Notes under the pieces: generated by a model
What the model was told of the DNA's origin: nothing
The model's database searches: none
The model's input: only the letters and a program-made list of their open reading frames with translations
NCBI GenBank assembly: GCA_005656395.1
Contig: SRSI01000046.1
Location: forward strand, 1 to 64,000
DNA: 64,000 nt
Source: Strongyloides papillosus
Lineage: Eukaryota; Nematoda; Chromadorea; Rhabditida; Strongyloididae
Reading direction: 5' to 3'
Shown here: positions 7,424 through 11,178 of the stretch, in pieces
How the letters are laid out: the number at the start of each line of letters is the position of its first letter
Position numbering within the stretch: position 1 is the first letter of the stretch
Translations under genes and position numbers: made by a program

Positions 7424-7541
7424 TGTTTGATATTTTACAATTAGAAGTAAAAGACGTTTATTTTATAAAAAAGGAGATATAAATAGACAATGATGTAATA
7501 AAAATTATAATATTTATATATTTAATATTCATTTTCCATCA
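7424..7541 (-). repeat. 3' LTR of element A
   Basis: 118 bp, beginning TG and ending CA on the plus strand. It matches 11790-11907 with one visible difference (aaatagac versus aaatggac). The pol stop codon at 7529-7531 lies inside it. Confidence 0.95.
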
Positions 7542-9193
7542 TCCCCCTTGAACAAGAATTTCTGGAGCTCCTCCAAGTTTGAAAACGTGTAGTAGGTAGT
7601 GCGGATGTCTTTGGAATATTCTTGTTCACTGTAATATTTGGCTATTTTATCTGCCAGTTCATTGTACATTATATTTTGATGAGACGCGACTTTAACGATA
7701 GTGCATCTCGAAGGGTCAAAAAGTTCACTGATTTTCTCCCATATGTTTGCATGTTTGGCTTTTTTCTTATTGCATAGTATAAATTCTTGTTCTTTCCAAT
7801 TAGTTAAACGGCGTAGGCACATGCAGACGTATTGAGAGTCGATCATCCAGAGACTTTTGAGAGAGAGTATTTGTAGACTTTTCATTACCAAGAGACAGTC
7901 ATAAATACTTTGTACTTCCAAGTATTGTGCAGTGACGTTTTTAAAATATGGTCGTCCTCCTGCATAAAATTTTCCATTATGGTTGATGATGAATCCAGTT
8001 CCTTTTCCTTTCAAGCAACTGCCATCTGAAGCAATTATGCACTCATAATTATTTTGACTTAAGTGCTCCATCACTTCTTTTTGACTTGAAAACTTGTAGG
8101 TTGAATTATTTTCCTTCATCTTCCTTTGTAAAAAGTTGATTTCGTGCTCTTTTCTAACATGCACTAATCCTTTATCATCAAGTATTTTATAAGTGTGGGG
8201 GGAACATTTCTCAAATGTTATGCCATTTACCCATTCTTTGTCATCAGGATGTAGTTTAAATTTAATTGTCTCCTCCATTTTTATTGGTTGGAAGAAGTGT
8301 TTGTTGATTTGATCTTCTGATAGTATAATCGTATTGAAAAAAAATTGTTCGATGGTCTTGGTAATTTCTCTGCCATCAATCATTTTGGTTCTTACAGTTC
8401 GGTGATTTTTTTGAATTGCCATGTCCATACACTCGTGAATTGTACGTTTATAGTCTTTATCTTTGACTAATTTTAACATTGCAGATTTCAACACATCTAC
8501 AGCTTTCTCTGCTTTACCATTTGTATTGGACTGATACGGGATTGAATAAATAACTTGAACATCAATCTCCTCCATGAATTGTACATACTTGGAACATTTG
8601 AAGCTTTTGAAATTGTCGCTGACACATGCATATGGAGTACCCATGTTGTTGAATGCTTTTATCAATGTCTTTACCAATGTGTCACTATCCATGGACTTAA
8701 CCTTGAAGCAATTGATGAAGAAGCTGAAATCATCCACGACTGTCAAAAAATTGTGACCTTCAAAAGTAAAGTAATCCAAGCAGTATCTTTCTCGTGGGAT
8801 CGACGTTGGAGACCATGTTGTAACTTTCTTTTTGGAATTTTTTCGGTATGTCATACAAATTGAACAGGACAGGTAGAATTGTTTAATTAATGTTGAAAAA
8901 TTTTGAAATACATATTTTGTTTTAGCTACTTTTATCATATAACCATCCGATTCATGCATTCCATGTAGAGATTCTAGTATAATTTGAACTAATTGAGGTG
9001 GAATGTACAATCTTTGGTCAAGTAGAATAATATCGTTTGAAACTGTCACTGCATATTTTCGTATGAATGCAGGAGCTTTAAATTTTAAATCATCGTTCCA
9101 ACCATATGTTGCAACTTCTTTTAACAATACCGTTAAGTCATCAAATTTGTAGGCCTCCGTCAATGTCATCTTATCTAGAGGTGTAAATTTCAA
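7529..9193 (-). CDS. element A pol part 2: integrase plus C-terminal RNase H
   Basis: Open for 554 codons; the first codon counted is TTG, so this is a continuation of pol and not an independent start. The N-terminal part is an integrase. It has an HHCC zinc site (H77/H80, C110, C113) and a catalytic triad D140, D193, E229 with exactly 35 residues between the last two. After a linker comes a second, complete RNase H fold. SDGS supplies D390, YLEVQ supplies E426, IDSQYV supplies D452, and SHQN with NELAD supplies H505 and D515. These match the RNase HI active-site pattern. The domain would degrade the RNA strand during reverse transcription. Its position after integrase is unusual. The ORF ends 13 nt inside the 3' LTR. 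The family assignments are secure; activity is inferred. Confidence 0.93.
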   Translation of the reverse strand: MKFTPLDKMTLTEAYKFDDLTVLLKEVATYGWNDDLKFKAPAFIRKYAVTVSNDIILLDQRLYIPPQLVQIILESLHGMHESDGYMIKVAKTKYVFQNFSTLIKQFYLSCSICMTYRKNSKKKVTTWSPTSIPRERYCLDYFTFEGHNFLTVVDDFSFFINCFKVKSMDSDTLVKTLIKAFNNMGTPYACVSDNFKSFKCSKYVQFMEEIDVQVIYSIPYQSNTNGKAEKAVDVLKSAMLKLVKDKDYKRTIHECMDMAIQKNHRTVRTKMIDGREITKTIEQFFFNTIILSEDQINKHFFQPIKMEETIKFKLHPDDKEWVNGITFEKCSPHTYKILDDKGLVHVRKEHEINFLQRKMKENNSTYKFSSQKEVMEHLSQNNYECIIASDGSCLKGKGTGFIINHNGKFYAGGRPYFKNVTAQYLEVQSIYDCLLVMKSLQILSLKSLWMIDSQYVCMCLRRLTNWKEQEFILCNKKKAKHANIWEKISELFDPSRCTIVKVASHQNIMYNELADKIAKYYSEQEYSKDIRTTYYTFSNLEELQKFLFKGDDGK

Positions 9194-9447
9194 AAAATCT
9201 ATTAATTCTAAAATTTCTACCAGAGAAGTTAAATCAGCTTCTGTACTGATGTCGGATATCTCAATTCACTAACTAAATGATCATTAGCTTTCATTGAGGA
9301 ACCTGTGAGCTGAAATGGTAGTAGTAATATTAAATATTTTTGGAAGCTACTGGAGGCTGACGATGGTATAATTTGATTATTTATCAACTTAGTTAAATTC
9401 TTGTTTGAATGAACAATAATCGGGCATGCTGTGGTGATATTAATATG
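9194..9447 (-). pseudogene. element A: second half of the degenerate RT-linked RNase H
   Basis: Reading on in the RT frame past the TAA at 9448-9450 gives a further stretch with the outline of the second half of a gypsy RNase H. IVHSNKNL lies where relatives have a TDHK-type motif. KANDHLVSEL lies where they have N-x-x-AD-x-LSR. Both catalytic Asp positions are replaced. A frameshift near 9260 leads into the integrase frame. I read this as a tether domain that had lost catalysis before the recent stop and frameshift arose. Confidence 0.7.
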
Positions 9448-11178
9448 TTAAGACAGTGCTTCACATAAAATCATTAAGCCTTTTTGTTCTGGAATGTAAC
9501 GTTGTTCCGTAGGTTTCAATTTTCTTTCATGAATGTAGAATTTTGAACGTTTTTTCTTATCGTTTTCAGCATCTAAAATACATAATGCAGAACGGGAAGC
9601 AGTACTAATAGTTGCGTGTACCTTTGATAATTTAGATGGAATTGCAAAGAGATGTATGGATTGAGCAAATGTACTAGTTAACTTTCTGAATTGAGTTTCC
9701 AATTCGTCGGACCATATCAATTTCTTCATTTTTTCTTTCTTACCTATCAAATCAAAGAAGGGTGCAGCTAATTCACTAAAATTGACAACCATATTTGAAT
9801 AGAAAGCCATTTTGCAAATTTTTGTATGCAGATCTTTAATTGATGTAGGTGAATTCATTGACAAAATTGATTTAACTTTATCTTCTGGTATAGATATGCC
9901 ATTTTCAATGTCCCAAACTAAACCTAAATAAGTCGTCGATTTTACCTTAAATTCTGATTTTTTCAGATTTATGCGGAATCCTGCTTCTTTCAATGCTTTA
10001 AGAGTTGATATGATTGTATCATCCTCCTTACCGTATGGGGCTAGGATTAACAAATCATCCATGTAACATTTGAGGAAAGGGATACCTGAAAGAGCTTCAT
10101 CTAGAGCTTGGCAGAATATCTGTGGACTGAGTTTATGACCAAATATCAATCTCGTTGAAACAAGAGTACCAATTGGTGTTCTAACTGCAGTTTTCCATTG
10201 ATCACTTTCATTTATTCCAATTGAACGATATGCATCACTTATATCCAACTTTGTGAACGTTACAATGTTATCTAGAGGAGTTTCTAGTAAACTTTTCAAC
10301 GAAGGTAAGTTCATTTCGTCTGGATCTGGTGTGTAATCGTTTATATTTCGAATATTATAACATAATCTAAGTTTTTCATTATGTTGATGTACCACAATCA
10401 AATTTCCAGCAGAAGTAATTGGTTCTTTAGCATATTTCAACCATCCTTTTTCTATTTCAGATTCTAACATGTTACATACAGTTGGAAGGATTTCTGCTTT
10501 TACAGGAAGTAGTGGAGCTATTTTGGGTTTAAAAGTTTCTTTTAAAGGTAGGTCACTATTTAAAATCGGTGTGAAGTTAACATCTTCTTGAATCAAATTA
10601 ATGTTTTTAGGATCGTTCAAAAATTCAACTATCGTTTCACATTCTTCACCAAGAGTGACTTTGATGTTGTGTATCAAATGTGATTCATGAGAGGGAGATT
10701 TTGATTTCATGTATTTTCTAATGTCAATGAAATTTTTTTGAATTGTATCAAAACCAATTGTAATTGCGGTGTCGTCGTTTCCACTCAGGAAGAACTTACC
10801 TGACATCAATTTCTCATTTGGTAACGTGAAATCAAGTTCAAGACTACCTTTATGAGTTCTACAAGTGTCATGTGCTGATTTTGTAGTTATTAAGTCATTC
10901 AAGTTTATTTTTTCTTTCGTTGAAGGAGGAAGTCTGTTAAACAATTGATTACCAATCAAGGATATGCCTGCACAAGTATCAATTTTTGCTGTAAAAGTTT
11001 TACCAACACATTCTAGCTTAATTGGAGCAGTACAGATAGATTCCATAAGAGTCTGGAGCATTTCTGAAGATACCTCTTTTTTCTTGGAGATGGTGATCAA
11101 CGGTTTTTTCTCGGAAGTTACCTGTTGATCTTTCGCTTTATTATTACCTAACCATTTTTTTTCAGGTTTTGGTTTCAA
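9448..11178 (-). CDS. element A pol part 1: protease and reverse transcriptase
   Basis: 576 codons in the same frame as gag upstream; the first codon counted is TTG, after the gag UAG. Protease: KIDTCAGIS with D67, a variant of the usual D-T/S-G-A/S. Reverse transcriptase: TKLDISDAY (D312) and CYMDD (372-375) supply the three catalytic Asp. A YLGLVWD thumb region follows. The last ~60 residues align by outline with the start of a gypsy RNase H, but HATISTAS stands where DAS(D) is expected, so the first catalytic Asp is missing. No CCHC zinc knuckle is seen. The ORF ends at TAA 9448, in the middle of that RNase H domain. Confidence 0.93.
   Translation of the reverse strand: MKPKPEKKWLGNNKAKDQQVTSEKKPLITISKKKEVSSEMLQTLMESICTAPIKLECVGKTFTAKIDTCAGISLIGNQLFNRLPPSTKEKINLNDLITTKSAHDTCRTHKGSLELDFTLPNEKLMSGKFFLSGNDDTAITIGFDTIQKNFIDIRKYMKSKSPSHESHLIHNIKVTLGEECETIVEFLNDPKNINLIQEDVNFTPILNSDLPLKETFKPKIAPLLPVKAEILPTVCNMLESEIEKGWLKYAKEPITSAGNLIVVHQHNEKLRLCYNIRNINDYTPDPDEMNLPSLKSLLETPLDNIVTFTKLDISDAYRSIGINESDQWKTAVRTPIGTLVSTRLIFGHKLSPQIFCQALDEALSGIPFLKCYMDDLLILAPYGKEDDTIISTLKALKEAGFRINLKKSEFKVKSTTYLGLVWDIENGISIPEDKVKSILSMNSPTSIKDLHTKICKMAFYSNMVVNFSELAAPFFDLIGKKEKMKKLIWSDELETQFRKLTSTFAQSIHLFAIPSKLSKVHATISTASRSALCILDAENDKKKRSKFYIHERKLKPTEQRYIPEQKGLMILCEALS

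Follow-up and report, generated by a model that had tools for sequence, protein, structure and literature searches.

Dual RNase H domains with decay of the native one are known, as far as the accessible text of the sources goes, in retroviruses, lokiretroviruses and the Odin, Tat, Archon and Chronos elements (PMC10508981, PMC5348765, PMC9040795, PMC8775202). The accessible part of one source calls the gain of a second RNase H with native decay a hallmark of retrovirus evolution, whose benefit is yet unexplained (PMC10508981), and that of another describes an Arg in place of the His at a semi-conserved active-site position in the archaeal-like RNase H of Tat, Archon and Chronos (PMC5348765). 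The stretch analysed here (the window) contains 64,000 nucleotides of Strongyloides papillosus (assembly GCA_005656395.1, contig SRSI01000046.1, positions 1 to 64,000) and shows, at 7419-11912 of the minus strand, a single Ty3/gypsy long terminal repeat (LTR) element, of which the LTRs, the target-site duplication, the primer-binding site (PBS) and the polypurine tract were all identified. The original prediction, made from this copy, held that the RNase H linked to its reverse transcriptase (RT), here RH1, is disabled, that a second RNase H, here RH2, follows the integrase (IN), and that this is an independent RNase H replacement in an animal Ty3/gypsy lineage. The element very probably belongs to a Strongyloides Ty3/gypsy clade with an ancestral capture of an RNase H1-type domain at the end of pol, in which RH2 would be the working enzyme and RH1 an inactive folded tether.

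RNase H domains of the window copy and its relatives

The window copy shows the order protease, RT, RNase H and integrase, with domains of Ty3 type. Pfam finds the RT in one frame and both PF00665 and PF00075 in the next; PF00075 passes its cut-off at residues 385-519 of the open reading frame (ORF) ending at 7529 (E=2.5e-14), which bears out the C-terminal RNase H after the integrase. The region had been correctly placed (7529-11178), and the residues assigned to RH2, D390, E426, D452, H505 and D515, are right: they are D16, E52, D78, H131 and D141 of the alignment segment starting at residue 375, where ten aligned copies have seven invariant columns, these five among them. The structural model of RH2 matches E. 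coli RNase HI in Foldseek, and foamy virus RNase H about equally well; the alignment with E. coli RNase HI runs through the W..K region, which we take to be the basic handle. By the PF00075 cut-off and the RNase HI fold, the window RH2 belongs to the RNase H1 family; the RH2s of loci L040 and L052-L055 are below the cut-off or unmatched. RH1 was said to lack its first, third and last Asp with the domain outline kept. The first Asp is replaced by Ser and the third is also lost (Asn or Ser by alignment); the loss of the last is the weakest of these points, with Glu in the alignment but an Asp a few residues earlier. The catalytic Glu, which the original prediction did not mention, is replaced by Gly. 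The degenerate active site therefore stands, but RH1 of this copy is not in one frame: a TAG (11188-11190) parts gag from pol, and a TAA and a frameshift lie inside RH1. Because this RH1 is broken, the claim needed testing on other copies, and it held in those read.

The genome scanned comprises 58.2 Mb, and 36 element loci were read, including the window copy: about 27 are distinct after dropping near-copies. PF00075 gives 55 genome matches, all above the cut-off, and open frames of 1304-1524 aa contain 22 of these; one (C22) is the host RNase H1, and part of the 55 were read individually. These 55 matches and the 36 loci rule out a chance match or a lone fusion, so the C-terminal domain is not confined to the window copy. 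The order RT-RH1-IN-RH2 is found in every locus with enough sequence (in L029, RH1 was placed only by alignment), RH2 is firmly established in 35 of the 36 loci with a dead RH1, the remaining one being L047 (C-terminus L053), and none of the loci read combines RH2 with an intact RH1. Five loci show an unbroken gag-pol frame of 1373-1505 aa: L012, L020, L022, L027 and L028. Over the span from RT to RH2, four of these unbroken pols are 19-32% identical to the fifth, and the RH2 acids are common to all five. Protein searches with RH2 elements gave one, at least 58 and at least 71 matches; among the matches listed, the proteins with PF00075 are P0001, P0002, P0003, P0059 and P0060 of Strongyloides and the retrovirus-like P0105. 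Proteins from S. stercoralis, S. papillosus and S. venezuelensis show the same domain order, and L035 is nearly identical to the S. papillosus protein P0059 (RT 208/209, RH1 140/140, IN 274/274 and RH2 144/144 identities). None of the 55 PF00075 sites lies within 4.5 kb downstream of the best 150 of 420 candidate canonical RT_RNaseH sites, and scans of viral contigs (query A1) and prokaryote contigs (query host RNase H1 exon) confirmed no relative.

None of the 36 loci shows more than two of the four acids of RH1 (Asp, Glu, Asp, Asp); RH1 is in one frame in 30 loci and in pieces in six, five (L018, L019, L038, L046 and L049) have one position within a gap or frame break, and the fragments L009 and L024 are left out of the count. 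By this count the active site of the native RNase H is lost, in a domain that is folded in the model of one copy. All nine Ty3/gypsy controls without RH2 keep the four acids of RH1: L042-L045, L050, L051 and three elements in the window. No RNase H was detected in the C-termini of the nine, and the six controls outside the window score no higher than 2.2 bits against a profile built from ten RH2 copies. RH2 shows its four acids in 32 of 33 complete domains (L053 included; fragments of L024, L025, L026 and L041 left out), the exception being L023 with Glu in first place; the active-site residues of RH2 are thus complete, and catalysis is predicted. Aligned RH2 copies are 24-32% identical to that of the window. 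At the His column, 26 of 33 RH2s have the His, six have Lys, Asn or Asp, and one (L040) has Arg. An archaeal-like RNase H, as in Tat, is ruled out by this position, where Arg would be expected. The RH2s of L036, L038, L040 and L052-L055, in which the His column is occupied by Asp, Lys, Arg or Asn, keep the four acids; since L052, L054 and L055 show a His four residues before the Lys (H..SK), the His may have been displaced rather than lost. The host RNase H1 exon (L062:737-1120, G000 C22) shows a His at the expected last catalytic Asp, and its top non-human PDB match is the E. coli mutant 1kvb (D134H).

Twelve loci (L040-L051) were fetched for having no PF00075 match nearby. L040, L041 and L046-L049 were reassigned to the RH2 side once RH2 was seen, L047 by eye alone; of the six remaining controls, L044, L045, L050 and L051 were previously known as canonical RNase H scorers. 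L046-L049 show no PF00075 match and yet a dead RH1, and their C-termini, fetched afterwards (L052-L055), show an RNase H-like pattern in all four. The ten-copy RH2 profile, made without the test loci, gives 3.9e-7 for L052, 6.9e-7 for L054, 0.0019 for L055 and 0.99 for L053, by which L052 and L054 appear clear and L055 fair. Pfam matches only L052 of these four, below the cut-off, and hhalign of L053 against the ten RH2s gives a weak match across the whole domain (probability 5, E 0.0079). L040 and L041 carry RH2, with 8.5e-7 and 7.6e-7 in the ten-copy profile (L041 partial). Scores from a profile rebuilt with the divergent copies are not independent, because those copies are included in it.

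Phylogeny, mobility and selection

In an RT tree of 59 rows, 32 RH2 elements form one side of a branch with support 99/95, found in 99% of bootstrap trees. This tree leaves out the near-copies L013, L015, L019, L021, L025 and L026, and its row "L053" is an unrelated neighbouring RT. A tree of 52 rows, additionally without L011, L018, L041, L053 and one window row, likewise gathers its 29 RH2 elements on one side of a branch, with support 99/99 and in 100% of bootstrap trees, with both the retrovirus-like P0105 and the Coffea P0084 outside the group; P0069 and P0122 contributed no usable RT. The database proteins labelled as lacking RH2 take that label from their Pfam listing, and the rows include one retrovirus-like sequence (P0105) and neither Odin nor lokiretroviruses. 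Both RT trees are midpoint-rooted, so the word clade assumes an outside root. The RNase H tree, built without near-copies and fragments, separates RH2 and four cellular RNases H from the native RH1 of the nine controls at 100/100. The attribution to an animal Ty3/gypsy lineage is correct. The RH2 elements stand apart from the retrovirus-like and the plant Tat-type sequence, and an independent replacement with the new domain at the end of pol is supported by the RT grouping and by RH2 siding with cellular RNases H. On the RT trees a single origin is likely; RH2 itself does not prove it.

Of 18 loci tested for LTRs, 14 show a flanking pair and four do not. The pair is 100% identical over at least 144 bp in nine of the 18 (L011, L012, L013, L016, L020, L022, L026, L027 and L028), and five of these nine (L012, L020, L022, L027 and L028) are those with the unbroken gag-pol frame. 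L018 and L019 show an LTR pair of only 37 bp. Duplications of 5 bp and TG..CA ends are present in 11 of 11 loci checked among the 14 with LTRs. Identical LTR pairs and 5-bp duplications suggest that RH2 elements have been recently mobile. Across the 14 loci that have an LTR pair, the distance from the end of pol to the 3' LTR is -8 to 96 nt, and because of this there is no env gene. L014 and L015 (G000 C5:892000 and C5:1240500) are multiply broken RH2 elements that differ by one synonymous change in 563 codons compared; they are oppositely oriented and about 345 kb apart on the same contig, an arrangement suggestive of an inverted segmental duplication.

Between an S. stercoralis and an S. papillosus protein, identities are 168/199 for RT, 109/146 for RH1, 219/272 for IN and 129/150 for RH2; judged by these counts, RH2 is as conserved as RT. 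The ratio of nonsynonymous to synonymous substitution rates (dN/dS) between L012 and L016 is 0.12 for RT and for RH1, with dS saturated. RH1 is likely under selection as a folded domain, as far as substitution patterns indicate.

Proposed mode of action and rival explanations

What was observed is the anatomy, the residues, the predicted fold, the grouping of the RTs, the recurrence of the arrangement and its association with a decayed RH1; catalysis by RH2, the tether role of RH1 and the mode of action are proposed on that basis. The ancestor of the clade would have gained a cellular-type RNase H1 domain at the far end of pol, after the integrase. RH2, which retains the metal-binding acids, would perform the RNase H work of reverse transcription: degradation of template RNA and making or removal of primers. 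RH1, relieved of catalysis, would have lost its active site and persisted as a folded spacer or hybrid-binding domain, like the retroviral tether (connection). From its place beside the integrase, RH2 would have two routes to the hybrid: it may reach the RT-bound hybrid from an unprocessed RT-RH1-IN-RH2 chain or an RT/IN complex, or it may act in trans within the particle, as IN-RH2 or as free RH2.

Several observations weigh against this proposal. All RH2 elements group together, so the pairing of RH2 with a dead RH1 counts as one event and not many, and RH2 forms a single group at only 80/50, with four cellular RNases H compared. RH1 of L037 keeps two Asp (D and D), that of L038 keeps D and E with the last position gapped, and two RH1s are still above the curated PF17917 cut-off (L012 with 25.4 bits and P0059 with 29.9). 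Seven of the 33 RH2s are without the His. L053 is unmatched by Pfam and by the ten-copy profile, and its RH2 was accepted by eye only, from DGS/E/D/D; therefore L047 may be an element with a dead RH1 and without RH2. Close pairs have few changes, and some of their dN/dS ratios are near 1: 1.08 for RT of L020/L021, 1.06 for IN of L016/L026 and 0.95 for RH1 of L031/L041. A further point is that the host has an RNase H1 gene which could act in trans.

With that gene, RH2 might not be the working RNase H: it would bind the hybrid or target integration, and host RNase H1 would supply the activity. The fusion of RH2 on the integrase side, distant from RT, fits this; however, the four acids are kept in nearly all complete RH2s despite their low identity to the window copy, and because of this conservation a non-catalytic RH2 is hard to accept and the explanation is improbable. 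There is also little probability that the clade derives from a former retrovirus or an Odin-like element, with the acquired RNase H relocated from before to after the integrase. Both of these combine a tether with an additional RNase H from the Fungi/Metazoa-like cluster, by the accessible text of PMC10508981, RH2 is mostly of the His type and its match to foamy virus RNase H is about as good as that to E. coli RNase HI; but P0105, with its RNase H before the integrase, is firmly outside the RH2 group in the 52-row tree, and the LTR-bearing loci have no room for env. It is very unlikely that RH2 arose by duplication of the native Ty3-type RNase H of the element, with the copy shifted to behind the integrase: RH1 and RH2 are both RNase H folds in the same polyprotein, but the RNase H tree rejects this origin, with RH2 and the four cellular RNases H on one side of the 100/100 split and the native RH1 of the controls on the other, and RH2 passes PF00075 and can be aligned across the W..K region with E. 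coli RNase HI. That RH1 is dead only through decay of this one broken copy, and that the C-terminal domain was joined to it by chance, for which the TAG, TAA and frameshift of the window copy could speak, has practically no probability, being refuted by the same state in other loci, by the five unbroken frames and by the same domain order in three Strongyloides species.

The capture of RH2 in the Strongyloides Ty3/gypsy clade is probably a further independent RNase H replacement, and the sole case met here with the working enzyme on the integrase and not on RT. If so, RNase H need not be tethered beside the polymerase for LTR retrotransposition; it would act from IN-RH2 or from uncleaved RT-IN, possibly coupling plus-strand completion to integration.

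Features of the window and comparison with known systems

Table 1. Parts of the RH2 element in the window.
Feature	Positions	Strand	Basis
Target-site duplication GTTTA, left copy	7419..7423		printed flanks
3' LTR, 118 bp, TG..CA; contains the pol stop TGA (7529-7531)	7424..7541	-	repeat comparison
Second pol open frame: end of the RH1 link, integrase, RH2	7529..9265	-	
Polypurine tract AAGGGGGA; adjoins the 3' LTR and overlaps the last pol codons	7542..7549	-	
RH2 (RNase H1-like), with all of its catalytic residues D, E, D, H, D	7625..8062	-	PF00075 2.5e-14; AF2 pLDDT 91; Foldseek match with E. coli RNase HI
Integrase, zinc-binding and core regions	8327..9130	-	PF00665 1.2e-10
RH1 second piece, in a different frame behind the TAA (9448-9450); third catalytic position not Asp	9253..9444	-	
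First pol open frame, with the protease region, RT and the beginning of RH1	9448..11187	-	
RH1 first piece; first Asp to Ser, catalytic Glu to Gly	9451..9693	-	
Reverse transcriptase, YMDD kept	9787..10428	-	PF00078 4.7e-18
Aspartic protease region, DTCAG motif	10729..11031	-	by eye from translation; no Pfam match in the window copy
gag-like ORF ending at an in-frame TAG ahead of pol	11188..11790	-	Pfam match weak
PBS TGGCGTTCCCGGTC; adjoins the 5' LTR	11776..11789	-	
5' LTR, 118 bp; single mismatch with the 3' LTR	11790..11907	-	repeat comparison
Target-site duplication GTTTA, right copy	11908..11912		printed flanks

The gag start codon straddles the junction between LTR and PBS in the window copy (11776-11790) and in L012, L020 and L022, and the first residues are encoded by the PBS: MAFP in the window copy and MAPP in the others. 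The window copy, like L020, L022 and L028, has the end of pol within the 3' LTR. With gag starting at the LTR/PBS junction and pol ending inside the 3' LTR, the coding frame therefore spans the element from LTR to LTR. In a search for the primer tRNA, 11 bases of the PBS complement match the genome at one other site, where no tRNA gene was called. A search with an SL1 pattern, meant to indicate the phylum, gave no match.

Two elements flank the RH2 element: a mariner-like element at 5710-7006, with inverted repeats of 35 nt and its family assigned by eye, and at 13186-15759 a PF13843 transposase with inverted repeats, presumably of piggyBac type. A Ty3/gypsy element at 18025-23107 shows 100% identical end repeats of 181 nt and an intact RT-linked RNase H, and is without RH2. 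The region 40256-43554 contains a gag-type ORF, with no pol and with a zinc-knuckle match just below the cut-off, between two 216-nt repeats (97%) that are 3083 nt apart; it looks like a gag-only non-autonomous element, judging from its sequence. A tandem array with a 16-nt unit, theme GTTAATAACTAACTTC, is present at 4221-4857.

Cellular RNase H1, represented by E. coli RNase HI and human RNase H1, shares with RH2 the fold, the DEDD residues and, in 26 of 33, the His; unlike it, RH2 sits at the C-terminus of a retrotransposon pol. The oomycete elements Archon and Chronos also have two RNases H, of which the native one is not conserved, but their second one is archaeal-like and adjoins the native one, and the extra domain that Chronos has beside the integrase, where pol ends, is a chromodomain and not an RNase H, by the accessible text of the source (PMC5348765). 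Plant Tat elements are likewise Ty3/gypsy elements with a decayed native RNase H and a second one gained; theirs, however, is archaeal-like, and none of the five structures described is told as lying behind the integrase in the accessible part of PMC10508981. The Coffea P0084, called Tat-type from its RVT_3 domain alone, shows RVT_3 before rve. Retroviruses, lokiretroviruses and Odin are alike in that the native Ty3-type RNase H became a folded tether and a new RNase H of Fungi/Metazoa type was gained, in animal hosts (PMC10508981, PMC9040795, both in their accessible parts); unlike them, with their new RNase H beside the native one, the Strongyloides elements have RH2 behind the integrase and no room for env. 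In P0105, RNase_H (804-948) precedes rve (1087-1182). The arrangement called structure 1 of retroviruses and Tat, with the new RNase H directly after the tether and before the integrase, is not that of the RH2 elements, where RH2 follows the integrase. The literature searched (titles and starts of abstracts, mostly outside subscription journals) gave no Ty3/gypsy element with an RNase H behind the integrase. The clade separates two ideas that are confounded in the known cases: that a new domain is needed beside the tether, and that replacement alone drives decay of the old site. Divergent open-frame copies with identical LTRs in a compact genome, together with relatives in two further Strongyloides species, make this testable with recombinant domains. 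As read from these sequences, the RNase H replacement would be convergent with those of retroviruses and plant Tat, and its position on the integrase side appears new within the literature searched.

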